From Hydrogenophaga sp. IBVHS2 (GTDB taxonomy: Bacteria; Pseudomonadota; Gammaproteobacteria; Burkholderiales; Burkholderiaceae_C), in the NCBI RefSeq assembly GCF_002127215.1, contig NZ_NFUT01000003.1, positions 248,001 through 312,000 on the forward strand: a DNA stretch of 64,000 nt, given 5' to 3'. Below, piece after piece: positions 29,341-35,704 of the stretch. Numbering within the stretch: position 1 is the first letter of the stretch; each line of letters begins with the position of its first letter. Under the pieces are notes generated by a model. The model did not search any database. It worked only from the letters and a program-made list of their open reading frames with translations, and had not been told where the DNA came from. The translations under genes were made by a program, and so were the position numbers.

Positions 29341-30111
29341 TCAGGCCAGCACCAGCCGCCGGCTGGCGATCTCCAGCAGGCCGTCGAAGATCAGGCTTTC
29401 CACCAGTTCGACTTCGGTCGACATGCTGGGCGCCATCTTCCAGCCGGCCCCCCCGGTCATGTAGCAGACCGGGTCCTCGCCGCAGTGGCGGCGCAGGTTC
29501 TCCACCATGCGCTGCACCGCGCCCGCAATCGCAAAGGTGCCGCCGCTGGTGAGCGCATCGCTGGTGTTGGTGGGAAAGTCGCGCACCTCACCGGTGGGTA
29601 CATGCAGGCCGGCCGTGCCGGATTCGAGGGCCCGCAGCATGATGCCGTGGCCCGGCAGGATGATGCCGCCCAGAAACCGGCCTTCGGTGTCGATGCACTC
29701 CACCGTGACGGCTGTGCCCACCATCACCACCACACAGGGACGGGGCCGGCCCTGCGCCAGCAGCCGGTGGCGAGCGCCGATCATGGCGACCCAGCGGTCG
29801 GAGCCCAGCCGGGCCGGATGGTCGTAGCCGTTGACCAGACCCGCCTCGGCCTGGGAGGACACGACCCAGCGCGGGGTCACGTCCCACATTTCCAGCTGCT
29901 CCTCCACCCGGCGCTTGACGGCGTCGCCAGCCACCACGCAGCCCAGCACCCAGCTCGGACACGAGAGGCGGTTCCAGTCGCCGTCTTCCAGCGACTCGAT
30001 GTTCTCCAGGAACTGGGCACCATGGGCCAGCAGGCGGGCACCGGGGCGGGGAGCGTCGTACACGGCCCACTTCAGGCGGGTGTTGCCGACATCGAGGGCC
30101 AGAAAACTCAT
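29341..30111 (-). CDS. coaX: Type III pantothenate kinase
   Basis: A 256-residue ASKHA-fold kinase. It begins [19 protein letters not shown] with the phosphate-1 DxGNT motif. [30 protein letters not shown] and [10 protein letters not shown] are family hallmarks. It phosphorylates pantothenate, the first step of CoA synthesis, and as a type III enzyme is not expected to be feedback-inhibited by CoA. The ATG at 30111 has no ribosome site, but GATAAT lies six bases upstream. Confidence 0.93.
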
Positions 30112-30117
30112 GGGCGG

Positions 30118-30123
30118 ATTATC
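30118..30123 (-). promoter_or_regulatory. Candidate -10 element of coaX, leaderless start
   Basis: On the minus strand GATAAT lies six bases before the coaX ATG and no Shine-Dalgarno is present. Transcription would begin at the start codon. A matching -35 is not obvious. Confidence 0.4.
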
Positions 30124-30163
30124 ACCAAGCGCCAAACTCGGGCATGCTGCCCTGCAGCAAGGC

Positions 30164-30832
30164 TCAGATCAGGCCGAGCCAGCAGGCGCGCTGGACCGCA
30201 GACAGCTTGTTGTCGGTCTGCAGCTTGGCCATGGCATTGGCCAGGTGGTAATTGACCGTGCGCTCGGTGCAGTCCATGCGGGCGGCCGTCTCGCGGGCGG
30301 TCAGACCTTCGAACGCCAGATTGAGGCTCTCCAGCTCGCGCGGGGTGAGCGAGACACGCTGCTCGGCAATCATGCGGCGCAGCATGGGCCACACATTGAA
30401 GGCCGACCAGGCCAATTGGGTGGCGTCGGCCCGGCTGGCAAACATGCGTGGGCTGAACATGAAGCATTCGAACGCGCGTCCTGCCGGCAGCGGAAACGAC
30501 ACCCACACCAGCGACTGCTGCCCGTGGGCCAGCCACAGCCGCCGCCAGCGGCCATCCTTCTCCCCGACCGCCTTGGAAATGTCCTGCCAGGCCACCAGGG
30601 GCGCATCGCTCTCGCGCCAGTCGGCACCGAAATCACTGCTCTCGGCCAGCGACAGCGCGGCACCCACAAACCGCGGCGGGTGGACCGCCAGCACCTCGCG
30701 GTCGTGGGGCGTGCCGGTGGGCACGGGCCCCAGCACCACCAGACCCTCGACACCCTGTTCGGCCAGTGCGGTCAGCCAGTCGGTCAGCAGGGCATCGACC
30801 CCCATGTTGTCAAAGTTGACAGGTAGGGTCAT
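30164..30832 (-). CDS. LuxR-type transcriptional regulator at the quorum-sensing locus
   Basis: A 222-residue protein (213 if it starts at the ATG at 30805). The C-terminal GerE/LuxR helix-turn-helix reads [20 protein letters not shown] then [20 protein letters not shown]. The N-terminal about 140 residues resemble the autoinducer-binding domain in layout ([20 protein letters not shown] then [13 protein letters not shown]), but I cannot place the full set of AHL-contacting residues, so it is best called a divergent LuxR solo. No luxI gene is in the window. It diverges from the sensor kinase. A dyad CTGTCA-N4-TGACA lies at its 5' end and a matching one lies before cqsA, which suggests it controls the locus. 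Confidence 0.8.
30807..30822. promoter_or_regulatory. lux-box-like dyad at the 5' end of the LuxR gene
   Basis: Read on the minus strand the sequence is CTGTCAACTTTGACAA, with half-sites CTGTCA and TGACA spaced by four bases. The dyad before cqsA (34554-34569) has the same half-sites and spacing. If translation starts at the ATG at 30805 rather than 30832, it lies directly upstream of the gene; otherwise it is inside codons 4-9. It may be autoregulatory. Confidence 0.45.
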
Positions 30833-30916
30833 GGGTGTCCGATTCGGGCGACGCCGACAATGCCCGGTCCCTCCGGGCGGGGAATGCTTCCGATGAATGC
30901 AGTTTCACAGGAGACC

Positions 30917-32263
30917 ATGTTGGCAATCGACCGTTTGTGGTGGCACAACGCCAGAGCACGACTGCGGCGCTGGTGGCGCGATGACGTGCTCAATGCACCC
31001 CTCGAGCCTATTTTGCACCCTTCGCGTCTGCGGCTGATGGGCATTGGTCTGTTCACTTGCTTCGGGCATCTGGCGTTCTACTGCATCTGGGCCTGGTGGA
31101 TCCCGCAGCCGTATGAATCGGCTTGGGCGCGGGGATTCATGGTGCTGTCGTCGATCGTGTACTTCACGATCGGGTGGCGTCGCGACTTCAACAGTGCCTC
31201 AAGCAGCCGCTGGTTCAGTGCGGCCACATGGCTGCAGCTGCCATGGTTCTTCAGCTGGATGTACATCATGAACGACGGCAATGCGGTCTGGCTGGCCAGC
31301 CTGGCCGCCATGATCCTCATCCATTTCCACTTCACAGACTGGCGCCTTGCGATTGCCGGACTCGCGCTGGGCGCGCCCGCAGGGATGATGGCGGCATGGG
31401 CCGTGCATGGGCACGAGGTGCATCTGCCCGCCCCTGAACATCAGCTGATCATCCTCTTCGCCACTGCCATGGGGCTGCTGCTGGGCATGTCGAGCGCCAA
31501 CCTGCGGCGGGTGCGACTGGTCAACACGCTGAGCACCATGGGCGTGATGGCCCATGAACTGCGCACACCACTGGCCACGGTGCACCTGATGGGCGACGTG
31601 CTGCGCAACATGGCCCAGCTGGATCAGCCCGAGGCCCGGCGCCGCAAGCTCGACGACCTGGGCCACCGCCTGCAGAACCTGGTCCGCGGCATGCACCGCC
31701 ACATCGACATGCAGATCGCCAACGCACAGCTCATGCGACTGCCGCGGGAGCAGAGCCCTATCCAGGCCGGCGATCTGGTGACCAGCGTGGTCGACAACTA
31801 CCCGTACCGGACCGCGCGCGAGCGCCACTGCGTGAGCGTGCACATCCAGGAAGACTTCCACTTCCGGGGGGCGCACCCCCTGTTCTCCAAGGTGCTGGCC
31901 AACCTCATCAAGAACGGCCTGCATGCCCTGGTATCGTCCAGCACGGCACTGTGTGCGGGCGACCTGCGCCTGACGGTGAGCGTGCGCAACCGCAGAGGCC
32001 GCATCGTGGTGGCCGATGACGGCATCGGCATACCGAATGAACTGCAATCGCGTATCTTCGAGCCCTTCTATTCCACCCAGGCGGGCGCCGGCAACGGCCT
32101 GGGCCTGAGTTTCTGCAAGAACGTGGTCGAGGACGCTCGCGGTAAGCTCAGCGTCCATTCACAATCCGGCAAAGGTGCCGTGTTCACCATCGAGTTGCCG
32201 CTGGTCCGTTCAGAAGCCCCGACACACCCGCCTGCACCGATCTCGCCCGATCCATGCCACTGA
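30917..32263 (+). CDS. Membrane sensor histidine kinase, CqsS/LqsS-like
   Basis: A 448-residue kinase. The N-terminal about 190 residues hold about six hydrophobic segments (for example LMGIGLFTCFGHLAFYCIWA, LAIAGLALGAPAGMMAAWAV, LIILFATAMGLLLGM) with no large periplasmic domain, as in CqsS and LqsS, which sense alpha-hydroxyketones in the membrane. The H box is VMAHELRTPLATVHLMGD (His213), the N box VLANLIKNGLHAL, G1 VVADDGIGIPNE and G2 GAGNGLGLSFCKNVV. Unlike Vibrio CqsS it lacks a fused receiver. AGGAGACC before the ATG at 30917 decides the start. A hairpin (GCCCGG at 30862, CCGGGC at 30873) lies in the upstream gap. It overlaps the response-regulator gene by ten bases. Confidence 0.85.
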   Translation: MLAIDRLWWHNARARLRRWWRDDVLNAPLEPILHPSRLRLMGIGLFTCFGHLAFYCIWAWWIPQPYESAWARGFMVLSSIVYFTIGWRRDFNSASSSRWFSAATWLQLPWFFSWMYIMNDGNAVWLASLAAMILIHFHFTDWRLAIAGLALGAPAGMMAAWAVHGHEVHLPAPEHQLIILFATAMGLLLGMSSANLRRVRLVNTLSTMGVMAHELRTPLATVHLMGDVLRNMAQLDQPEARRRKLDDLGHRLQNLVRGMHRHIDMQIANAQLMRLPREQSPIQAGDLVTSVVDNYPYRTARERHCVSVHIQEDFHFRGAHPLFSKVLANLIKNGLHALVSSSTALCAGDLRLTVSVRNRRGRIVVADDGIGIPNELQSRIFEPFYSTQAGAGNGLGLSFCKNVVEDARGKLSVHSQSGKGAVFTIELPLVRSEAPTHPPAPISPDPCH

Positions 32264-33237
32264 CACTCCCGCTCATCCGCCGCCCCGGCAGCATCCTGTT
32301 TCTGGATGACGATGTCGACTATCTGGAGATGCTGGGCATGGTGATCCCCGGGCACATCCAGATCGAGCTGTTTTCCCGGCCTGCCGGTTTCGGCCGGCGC
32401 ATGGAAGAAGAGACCGCCCGCTGGGAGGCCGACGCGCTGCTGCAGCTCCAGATGATCGACCGCTGGCGCAACGGCGTGCCCTTGCTGCCGCAGATCCTGA
32501 ATTACTGGTCCACCCGCCCGGACCGGTACCGGCTGGTGCAGAGTTGCGTGGTCGACTACGCCATGCCCGGCACCGACGGACTCGCTGTGCTCAACACCCT
32601 GCTGGACTGGCCGGGCTCCCGTGTGCTGCTGACCGGGCAGGCCGACGAGCAGATCGCGGTGAAGGCCTTCAACAGCGGACTGATCGACCAGTTCGTGCCC
32701 AAGCAGACCCATGACATCACCCGGCACTTGCTGGCCGTGCTGCGCAAGCTGGCCCAGACGCCGCATGTTCGTCTCAATGCCCTGTGGCGCAGCGTGCTCA
32801 CGCCGGAACAGCAATCGCTGCTGCAGATACCGGCGGCCACCGAGGCGCTGCAGCACCTCAGCCAGACCCGCTGGGTCGAGCACGTGGTGCTGGGTGCCCC
32901 TTTTGGCATGCTTGGGGCCACCACCGACGGTGCCTGTGAATGGCTGCAGCTCGAGCCGGTGGCCGGGCTGGCCGGACTGGCCGAACTCGCGGGTTCTGCC
33001 GGCATGGACTTCGACACCGTCCGCTCGGTCCGCGCCGGTGAACGTCTGGCAGCGGTGGAGCTGCACCAGCAGCTGGGCCTGAAGGGGCCCATCCAGGAGG
33101 CGCCGGCACAGCCTCTGGATGACGACGGGCTGCTGACCAGTGCCTTGTTCCCGCTGACGCCGACCGAGCACCCGCCCTTGCCCGCCTACCGTGCCGTATT
33201 GCGGGCCGCCGAACACCGCTCGGTGGACCAGACCTGA
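32254..33237 (+). CDS. Atypical response regulator, LqsR/JqsR-like
   Basis: A 327-residue protein. The receiver starts ILFLDDDVDYLEML (Asp18-20 acidic pocket), has phospho-acceptor Asp101 in VVDYAMPGTDG, Thr127 in VLLTGQAD and Lys150 in FVPKQ. Between the first helix and the phospho-Asp strand there is extra sequence of about 45 residues (about 45-92) compared with a normal receiver. The C-terminal about 170 residues show no DNA-binding or known output motif. Legionella LqsR and Janthinobacterium JqsR, encoded beside hydroxyketone synthases and kinases, are the closest families I know. It is co-translated with the kinase and is convergent with cqsA, 12 bases apart. Confidence 0.82.
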   Translation: MPLTLPLIRRPGSILFLDDDVDYLEMLGMVIPGHIQIELFSRPAGFGRRMEEETARWEADALLQLQMIDRWRNGVPLLPQILNYWSTRPDRYRLVQSCVVDYAMPGTDGLAVLNTLLDWPGSRVLLTGQADEQIAVKAFNSGLIDQFVPKQTHDITRHLLAVLRKLAQTPHVRLNALWRSVLTPEQQSLLQIPAATEALQHLSQTRWVEHVVLGAPFGMLGATTDGACEWLQLEPVAGLAGLAELAGSAGMDFDTVRSVRAGERLAAVELHQQLGLKGPIQEAPAQPLDDDGLLTSALFPLTPTEHPPLPAYRAVLRAAEHRSVDQT

Positions 33238-33249
33238 CGGAGTGGTCGG

Positions 33250-34488
33250 TCAGTCAGCGCGCGCCCTGCGCATCCGGCGGGCGATTCCCCAGGTGTCGGG
33301 TCTGAACTGCGGCACCAGGTCAGCCATGACCTGCTCCAGGTGGGACAGCTCACTGTCGGTCAGCCCGGCATTCAGGGTCAATCGGACCATGGACCGGTTG
33401 CGGCTCGTGGCTGGCGGAAAGAAAATGGAACCGAACAAGCCTCGGTCTTCCATGGCATCTCGCAGATCGCGGGCAGCAACTTCGGTACCGATCTCCAGCG
33501 CAATGATTTGCTCGCTGCCGGGCAGCGCATAGCCCAGTGCCGACAGACGCTCCCGCACCCTGAGGGTATGCTCTTTCAGCCGTACCCTGGCTTCGCAGGC
33601 TCCTTGCAGCAGGCGCACTGTCGCCTGGAGGCCCGCCACCTCGTGCCCGAGCAGGCAGGAGCTGAACATCGTCGGGTAGCTGTTGGTGATGACGTATTGC
33701 CTCAGACAGGCCGGCAAGGTAAAGAACCCGGCGCGGCCTGCTACCGCCTTGGCCAAACTGGAGGAGATGAAATGCACACGGTGGCTCAATCCCAGTGCAG
33801 CAGTCAGACCTGCTCCGGCAGGACCATGGGTGCCCAACGAATGGGACTCATCCACCAGCAGCATGCAGCCGCGGCGTTCGGCCACCTCCACCATGGCCTG
33901 CAGGGGGCAGACATCGCCTGTCGTGCTGTAAACCGAGTCGACCGCCACCAGGCCCGGCCCATGCTGCAGCGCCAGCCGTTCCAGGTGTTCGGGATCGTTG
34001 TGCCGAAATGCATGAGCGACGGCGCCGGCTGCACGAATGCCCTCCCACAGGGAAGCATGGGCCAGCGTGTCGATGTAGACCGGACTGTCCTTCGGCGCCA
34101 GGCATTGCATGGCACCGATGTTCGCGGCGTACCCCGACTGGCACAGCAGTGCGTCTTCGTGGCAGGTCCAGCGTGCCAGCTCCAGTTCGAGTGCGCGCGC
34201 AGGATGCTCCTCACGCTGAAACAGCCCTGACTGAACCACCGCCTGGGTTCCATGCATCAGGGCCTTGACCTGGGCGGCCACGATGTCCGGGTGGCCCGTC
34301 ACAGCCAGATAGTCATTCCCGTCCAGCCGGACCGCGTTCGGGCCGGGGGCCTGGCCCTCGAGCAGCGAGCGTCCACCCCAGTCCCGCTTCCAGCGGGGCT
34401 GAAAGTCGCGCTCGATGCGCCGAAGCAGACCGGCCGACAGGGCGGGTCGGTGCTGCACGGAACGGTGGGTGCACAGATCGGTTTCCAT
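33250..34488 (-). CDS. cqsA: Alpha-hydroxyketone autoinducer synthase (CqsA/LqsA/JqsA type)
   Basis: A 412-residue PLP enzyme of the alpha-oxoamine synthase family. Schiff-base Lys247 lies in ISSSLAKAVAGRAGFF, and Asp213 and His216 in LVDESHSLGTHGPAGAG. Segments such as LDGNDYLAVTGHPDI, YIDTLAHASLWEGIRAAGA, HGPGLVAVDSVYSTTG and FGSIFFPPATSRNRSMVRLT match my memory of Vibrio CqsA rather than KBL, BioF or HemA. CqsA condenses an acyl-CoA with S-adenosylmethionine or 2-aminobutyrate, giving CAI-1-type amino- or hydroxyketones. GGAG lies six bases before the ATG. The neighbouring kinase and response regulator form the matching signal path. Confidence 0.9.
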   Translation of the reverse strand: METDLCTHRSVQHRPALSAGLLRRIERDFQPRWKRDWGGRSLLEGQAPGPNAVRLDGNDYLAVTGHPDIVAAQVKALMHGTQAVVQSGLFQREEHPARALELELARWTCHEDALLCQSGYAANIGAMQCLAPKDSPVYIDTLAHASLWEGIRAAGAVAHAFRHNDPEHLERLALQHGPGLVAVDSVYSTTGDVCPLQAMVEVAERRGCMLLVDESHSLGTHGPAGAGLTAALGLSHRVHFISSSLAKAVAGRAGFFTLPACLRQYVITNSYPTMFSSCLLGHEVAGLQATVRLLQGACEARVRLKEHTLRVRERLSALGYALPGSEQIIALEIGTEVAARDLRDAMEDRGLFGSIFFPPATSRNRSMVRLTLNAGLTDSELSHLEQVMADLVPQFRPDTWGIARRMRRARAD

Positions 34489-34553
34489 GGAGTACTCCAG
34501 TTAATGAAAAGGTACCCATTGGAAAAAACGCCAACCTTCGTGCAGACAGCGAC

Positions 34554-34569
34554 CTGTCAGATCTGACAG
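34554..34569. promoter_or_regulatory. Perfect 16-bp lux-box-like palindrome upstream of cqsA
   Basis: CTGTCAGATCTGACAG is a perfect palindrome centred 73 bases before the cqsA start codon. It fits the CT-N12-AG pattern of lux boxes and has the same half-sites and spacing as the dyad at 30807-30822. It is probably the target of the LuxR-type protein encoded 4 kb away. Confidence 0.6.
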
Positions 34570-34588
34570 CGCATGGCAGGGAGATCGG

Positions 34589-35704
34589 TCAGTTCTGGCG
34601 CCACGGCAGTCCCAGGAATCGCCAGCCACCCTGCCGCCCCCGATGGGCCTGCCCGTCCGGATCGCCTTCGAAGCCGTCGAGGATGTTGTAGGCCTCGATG
34701 CCCAGCTGGGTGGCCCGGCGGGCGGCAGCGACCGAGCGCACGCCGCTGCGGCACAGCAGCACCACCTTGCGCCCCTGGGACGCAGCCCGGATCTGCTCGT
34801 CGAAACCGGGGTTGAGCGCCATGCCGGGCCACTGCTTCCAGGCCACGGCCACCGCGCCGGGCACGAAGCCGACCCATTCCCGCTCGGCGTCGGTGCGCAC
34901 GTCCACCAGCACCGCCTCGCCCGCCTGGGCCCAGGCCCAGGCCAGCTGCGGCGACACGTCGCCGGCGTAGCTGGCATCGGCCACCTCGCGGGGCTGCATG
35001 AGGGCAGCGCCATCCACATCGTGCCGCAGGCCGGAGGTCAGATTGGCCGGCACGGCTTCGTCGATGCGGCGCGGTCGGGGCAGCTGCAGGCTGTTCATGA
35101 GCGACACGAACGCCGCCTCGCTGCGCCCGGCCAGACGGGGGTTGTGCAGCTTCTCGTGGCCGATGGTCGAGTGGGTTCGACCCTGGTAATCGTGCCCCGG
35201 CCACACCGTGGTGTCGTCCGGCAGCCGGAACAGGACTTCGGTGATGCTGCGATACAGATCGGCGGCACTGCCCGACTGGAAGTCGGTCCGGCCGCAGCCG
35301 CCGATGAGCAGCGTGTCGCCGGTGAACACATGGTTGCGCCAGAGGAAGCTCATGCTGCCGGCGGTATGGCCCGGGGTGTGCAGGGCGCGCAGCGACTCCT
35401 GACCGAAGGAGAGGGTGTCGTCCTGCTGGAGCTGCGTGGCCGCGGTGCCGATGCCGCAACCGGCCGGAGCGGCCAGCCGGGCGCCCGCCAGTTCGGCCAG
35501 ACGCCCGGCGCTGGTGATGTGGTCGGCATGGGCGTGGGTTTCCACCGCCCAGACCAGGCGCAGCCCGTGGTCCCGCAGCACGGCGAGGTCGCGGTCGATC
35601 TGTTCGTCCACCGGGTCGATGATGAGTGCGTCCCGGCTGACGGGGTCGAACAGGATGTAGGTGTAGGTGCTGGATGCGGGGTCGAACAGCTGCAGGGGCT
35701 TCAT
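34589..35704 (-). CDS. Persulfide dioxygenase (ETHE1-like)-rhodanese fusion
   Basis: A 371-residue fusion. The metallo-beta-lactamase part (1-240) has THAHADH (His57, His59, Asp61, His62), LHTPGHTAGSMSF, FTGDTLLIGGCGRTDFQ and WPGHDYQG, the mononuclear-iron ETHE1 pattern. The rhodanese part has the active Cys318 in LLCRSGVRSVAAA. Such fusions (PRF) oxidise glutathione persulfide to sulfite, and the rhodanese moves sulfur between sulfite or thiosulfate and glutathione. The ATG at 35704 (MKPLQLFDPASSTY) starts the first strand. No sulfide regulator or quinone reductase lies nearby. It is upstream of and co-directional with cqsA but separated by 100 bases that hold the lux-box-like dyad. Confidence 0.9.
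   Translation of the reverse strand: MKPLQLFDPASSTYTYILFDPVSRDALIIDPVDEQIDRDLAVLRDHGLRLVWAVETHAHADHITSAGRLAELAGARLAAPAGCGIGTAATQLQQDDTLSFGQESLRALHTPGHTAGSMSFLWRNHVFTGDTLLIGGCGRTDFQSGSAADLYRSITEVLFRLPDDTTVWPGHDYQGRTHSTIGHEKLHNPRLAGRSEAAFVSLMNSLQLPRPRRIDEAVPANLTSGLRHDVDGAALMQPREVADASYAGDVSPQLAWAWAQAGEAVLVDVRTDAEREWVGFVPGAVAVAWKQWPGMALNPGFDEQIRAASQGRKVVLLCRSGVRSVAAARRATQLGIEAYNILDGFEGDPDGQAHRGRQGGWRFLGLPWRQN

Follow-up and report, generated by a model that had tools for sequence, protein, structure and literature searches.

Alpha-hydroxyketone quorum sensing is known from Janthinobacterium, where clusters of a synthase, a kinase and an LqsR-type regulator were described (PMC3566124, PMC5080296), and from the Lqs system of Legionella (LqsA/LqsS/LqsT/LqsR). 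Here we describe a related locus in Hydrogenophaga sp. IBVHS2, located at positions 30164-34488 of a stretch of 64,000 nucleotides (assembly GCF_002127215.1, contig NZ_NFUT01000003.1, positions 248,001 to 312,000), hereafter called the window. It contains genes for a synthase (A), a membrane kinase (S) and an LqsR-type response regulator (R) together with a LuxR-type regulator gene (X) and two candidate operators. We propose, with a probability of roughly 0.6, that the locus encodes an alpha-hydroxyketone quorum-sensing circuit in which X is the dedicated transcriptional output. The A/S/R trio is of the known kind and X is the new part. The publications cited were available in part, and statements on their content refer to these parts.

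Comparison with described hydroxyketone systems

The Jqs system of Janthinobacterium HH01 (jqsA-jqsS-jqsR) has the same clustered set of synthase, kinase and response regulator, and a promoter palindrome was reported for its JAI-1-controlled genes (PMC3566124, PMC5080296). However, the Jqs palindrome TTGAN6/7TCAA is absent from the window, where the site is CCCTGTCARNNYTGACAGGG. The term 'luxR' does not occur in the available text of PMC3566124, and that of PMC5080296 mentions just luxI/luxR homologues and solos of some strains. The Lqs system of Legionella shares the synthase, the kinase and the LqsR-type regulator with our locus but has no linked LuxR-type gene in the available parts of PMC3376566 or PMC11237717 ('luxr' has 0 occurrences in the latter); where PMC3376566 names LuxR, it means the regulator of V. 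harveyi or the type known from V. fischeri. The output of LqsR is called unknown or putatively nucleotide-binding in this literature, and its mechanism is called unresolved in PMC10653808.

Homologues of lqsA and lqsS were found in Polaromonas and others (PMC3376566, PMC11237717). For the PhcX/LqsR family, lqs and phc genes were mapped over genera of Proteobacteria, and Hydrogenophaga is listed among the genera with lqsR adjacent to phc genes (PMC10653808). This survey differs from the present work in that its main text as available does not contain 'LuxR', 'palindrom' or 'operator' (0 occurrences each). In the accessible text of the open-licence literature searched, neither a LuxR-type partner nor a lux-box-like operator of a hydroxyketone system is described.

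Gene content of the locus

An initial annotation of the window had placed four contiguous genes here, and 30164-34488 is indeed filled by four open reading frames in the order X(-) S(+) R(+) A(-). The host genome has a size of 3.17 Mb and is 93% complete. Genes and candidate operators are as follows (HTH, helix-turn-helix; AHL, N-acyl-homoserine lactone; PLP, pyridoxal phosphate; pLDDT, predicted local distance difference test).

30164..30832, minus strand: X, LuxR/GerE-HTH regulator of 222 aa whose N-terminal domain is predicted to be alpha/beta, of AHL-receptor/GAF type (GerE 5.6e-14; model pLDDT 88.7; Foldseek; synteny)
30860..32263, start possibly 30916, plus strand: S, sensor histidine kinase with multi-pass membrane sensor, HisKA and HATPase, without receiver (domain search)
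32254..33237, plus strand: R, LqsR-family response regulator with phospho-acceptor Asp101 (profile match to 6sy9; D18-D20, D101, T127, K150)
33250..34488, minus strand: A, alpha-hydroxyketone autoinducer synthase of the CqsA/LqsA/JqsA family with PLP-binding Lys247 (NF005526, 504.6 bits; CqsA 3hqt)
34553..34570, no strand assigned: candidate operator 1, CTGTCAGATCTGACAG, with a perfect palindrome of 16 bp (0 mismatches at 34554-34569); it precedes the A start codon by 65 bp
30806..30823 (core 30807-30822), minus strand: candidate operator 2, near-palindrome CTGTCAACTTTGACAA with a single mismatch, within X codons 4-9 and the divergent region between X and S

The description of A as a CqsA-like PLP synthase was borne out. 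The protein of 412 aa reaches 504.6 bits against the NCBIfam model NF005526 'alpha-hydroxyketone-type quorum-sensing autoinducer synthase' (cut-off 428), and its top solved structure is CqsA of V. cholerae (3hqt, E 8e-93). The motif DESHSLGTHG at residues 213-222 and Lys247 are invariant across 12 aligned rows. An assignment to KBL, BioF or HemA is opposed by the profile scores, with BioF as next best model at 216.5 bits against a cut-off of 426; a tree agrees but is weak, having one paralogue from the same genome as outgroup. A is convergent with R, with 12 bp between the two genes.

S and R are the multi-pass kinase and the separate response regulator that had been described. In S, the HATPase domain was found at 1.6e-22 and HisKA at 3e-5 (24.4 bits, slightly below the cut-off of 26.9), and the Pfam search found no receiver domain. 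About five or six hydrophobic stretches lie within residues 57-216, a count that is uncertain due to overlapping segments. The alternative start at 30916 has, by eye, the better ribosome-binding site. The reading frames of S and R share 10 bases. The receiver of R is weakly detected by Pfam (25.3 bits, cut-off 30.2) and is its sole Pfam match, so that no DNA-binding domain is recognised in R. The family profile of R matches the solved response regulator 6sy9 over profile positions 5-268 of 329 (E 2e-39). We take this structure, whose record title reads 'Response regulator', to be LqsR of Legionella. The residues D18-D20, D101, T127 and K150 are all kept in R of the window.

Conservation of the gene set

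Gene order was analyzed in named loci on genome contigs, namely the best 80 of 551 confirmed relatives. S and R adjoin A in all 80, as expected for the complete hydroxyketone locus of the Lqs/Jqs type that had been claimed, with S placed by its domains and its position in the locus; the kinase/regulator pair is thus not absent from relatives with the synthase. The signal that this organism would produce may resemble CAI-1 or LAI-1. The order X-S-R-A was found in 76/80 loci, among them loci of Hydrogenophaga, Polaromonas and Ramlibacter. Three of the four loci without X run off a contig edge. The single complete one is L179 of Polaromonas sp. OV174, in which X was searched within the locus; it also has no operator upstream of the synthase.

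In addition, 299 genomes of the window's family were surveyed. A has matches at E up to 1e-30 in 122 of them. In 31 genomes the match reaches E 3.6e-92 or better, clearly set apart from the one that follows at 6.6e-47, and an A orthologue was counted as present in those 31. An order-wide survey covered 349 genomes, 10 of them listed in the window's family, with at most eight candidates scored per genome. At E up to 1e-25, X was found in four genomes, all from the window's family, and in 0/339 genomes of other families. Since 15 of these 339 genomes have the synthase, X seems to have been added in a single clade.

X is a LuxR-type regulator without a recognised AHL domain

X is the only one of the four genes in which a DNA-binding domain was recognised, a GerE HTH with 52 bits in Pfam. 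No Pfam family was recognised in its residues 1-158. The GerE HTH is present in 66/66 members of the X family, whereas the autoinducer-binding domain PF03472 was found in 0/66 at E up to 10 with HMMER filters on. The structure model (pLDDT 88.7) has AHL receptors as best Foldseek matches (E 1.7e-8), and X is predicted to share their overall fold. Similarities to AHL receptors and LuxR solos further include the HTH, whose identity with two local AHL LuxR proteins is 37% in 89 columns, and the candidate lux-box-like site described below; the lack of a PF03472 match in the X members sets them apart. A survey of LuxR solos selected its proteins by PF03472 (PMC10134790), so that X would fall outside it. 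Next to X, at 29341-30135 of the window, lies a gene that looks by eye like a type III pantothenate kinase gene; X of L069 is followed by a similar one.

The initial annotation had pointed to the LuxR-type gene as an addition that could join two quorum-sensing logics. That the gene matters is borne out by synteny, candidate operators and codon choice. With PF03472 in none of the 66 members, the joining is not supported in the sense of AHL sensing; what the sequence shows is a join at the DNA level, between a candidate site of the lux-box type and a LuxR-type HTH.

Two conserved palindromes as candidate operators

Two matching palindromes of the type CCCTGTCARNNYTGACAGGG go beyond what had been noticed before, one upstream of A and one inside the start of X. 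We take the conserved palindrome to resemble the lux box of V. fischeri. The window alone is not decisive, as 3/100 shuffles reach an equal number of matches; the palindromes gain their weight because they are conserved in relatives. For operator 1, with the consensus ACCCTGTCARNNYTGACAGGGT from 72 sites, the core CTGTCANNNNTGACAG was found in 62, 72 and 75 of 79 loci at up to 0, 1 and 2 mismatches, compared with shuffled means of 0, 0.05 and 0.85 (one of the 80 loci had too little upstream DNA). Operator 2 was found in 34, 62 and 74 of 76 loci at the same thresholds.

Operator 2 lies in X codons 4-9, encoding the peptide Pro-Val-Asn-Phe-Asp-Ser. Codons were counted in 75 X genes with the peptide motif, one of 76 being dropped, and the search pattern required the proline. 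The proline is encoded by CCT in 75/75 genes, compared with 8.3% of the proline codons elsewhere in the same genes, and the phenylalanine by TTT in 73/74 (background 33%). For the serine, AGC is not enriched by itself (23/72) and AGT is used in most. Such a strict synonymous codon choice points to X codons 4-9 doubling as a DNA site.

The palindromes also go with X. Operator 1 (up to one mismatch) is present in 69/75 named synthase loci with X and in 0/18 synthase loci without it, namely L179, the family genomes G009, G129 and G093, two of which are incomplete, and 14 loci from other families. Three named loci that are cut by a contig end before X carry operator 1 and were left out of both groups. 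Over the family genomes, the 18-bp palindrome CCTGTCANNNNTGACAGG was found in 30/299 and a reversed control pattern in two. It occurs in 21 of 34 genomes with full-length X versus 9 of 265 others (Fisher 9e-17 over genomes, inflated by kinship). One of the nine, G279, carries an X fragment. Of the remaining eight X-less genomes, G258 has the palindrome 94 bp before a LuxR gene with PF03472, and in G165 it lies directly behind a LuxR gene with PF03472 and a LuxI neighbour. LuxR-family genes therefore seem to go with such sites. In X-less genomes, palindromes beside canonical LuxR genes are seen in L121 around 3004 and in L120 around 2096, the latter also with LuxI.

R as probable partner of X

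R is present in all 34 family genomes with full-length X, and A in 28. In the other six genomes (L069-L074: G055, G162, G069, G175, G253 and G272) X adjoins R, with no synthase and no kinase between them, and R keeps D18-D20, D101, T127 and K150 in all six. The exact core palindrome was found in three of these loci, in G055 at X, in G162 at X and behind R, and in G272 behind R. The metallo-hydrolase/rhodanese-like and TRAP-type neighbours in L071-L073 resemble, by eye, the genes next to A in the window, which gives the impression of a loss of synthase and kinase at this same place. In G070 (L075), the R gene has a distant X-like gene 12 bp behind it. In G305, a genome of another family of the order, a LuxR-type gene with PF03472 above the cut-off comes after S and R in one run, separated from R by 12 bp (L230:4654-6417). 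Co-occurrence, adjacency and the arrangements in L075 and L230 favour R as the partner of X.

Proposed circuit and alternative explanations

In the circuit we propose, A would make the signal by PLP chemistry, and S would sense it in the membrane and alter the phosphorylation of R at Asp101, both steps as assumed from the Lqs and Jqs families. R may then control X, as the co-occurrence of the two suggests. X would bind the palindromes upstream of A and inside its own start beside S, as judged from their conservation. Its action could thus feed back on signal production, on X itself and on S-R, and may reach a few distal promoters, in the window's genome one, with a palindrome 42 bp before a winged-helix regulator.

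Several observations weigh against X as the output of this circuit. R occurs without full-length X in nine genomes, so R can work otherwise. Among the synthase-less loci, the exact site of G272 lies behind R and not at X, two loci have a one-mismatch site alone, and G253 has none. The strict 18-bp palindrome is missing from 13/34 X genomes. In X-less genomes it is mostly intergenic (8/9 sites), which points to its use by other proteins in those genomes. A search of 30700-34800 for a sigma-70-like promoter gave none. Moreover, the loci are related and the sets of 80 loci and 299 genomes overlap (e.g., L151 and G208), so that the counts are not independent and the p-values are inflated by kinship.

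As the main rival explanation, X itself may bind the hydroxyketone. As a cytoplasmic receptor it would take up the hydroxyketone or a related lipid ketone in its N-terminal LuxR-type domain, so that the signal is read twice, by S and by X, and X acts independently of R. We regard this explanation as possible but unlikely. In its fuller form, a LuxR-fold protein that has lost recognisable AHL binding would read the hydroxyketone inside the cell, the membrane kinase would read the same molecule, and both branches would meet at the lux-box-like operators. This is slightly more doubtful still. If true, one locus would contain two receptors for a single signal, one of the one-component and one of the two-component kind.

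X could also sense a different ligand, e.g., a host, plant or bacterial compound, and gate the hydroxyketone circuit as LuxR solos do, with R as a mere neighbour. LuxR solos can sense other chemical classes according to the available part of PMC13220807. Distal palindromes precede diverse genes, among them a secretion transporter, a cellulase and transporter components, which would fit such a role. However, no full-length X without R was found among the 299 genomes, and the genes 12 bp behind R in L075 and L230 argue against a chance neighbourhood, which makes this explanation rather improbable. In L091, L095, L096 and L103, from three genera, the palindrome stands 3-95 bp upstream of secretion-transporter genes that are homologous to each other; the one that was scanned is of the ShlB/FhaC type.

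Least probable of all is that a different regulator uses the palindromes, with X as a mere syntenic neighbour: binding by X is deduced from sequence and eight genomes without any X carry the 18-bp palindrome, but the site follows X both at the synthase and over genomes (69/75 versus 0/18 and the Fisher test above, both kinship-inflated), the second site lies inside the start of X itself, and two of the eight X-less cases adjoin LuxR genes.

Meaning for hydroxyketone signalling

At least one genome outside the family (L230) likewise has a LuxR-type gene next to such a kinase and regulator, which points to more than one origin of this link. With X as transcriptional output, the presence in one locus of an HTH protein and of explicit candidate operators suggests how a hydroxyketone signal could reach the genome. 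The question of the LqsR-type output thereby becomes testable in an environmental clade with X, and the palindrome can serve as a search motif for the regulon.

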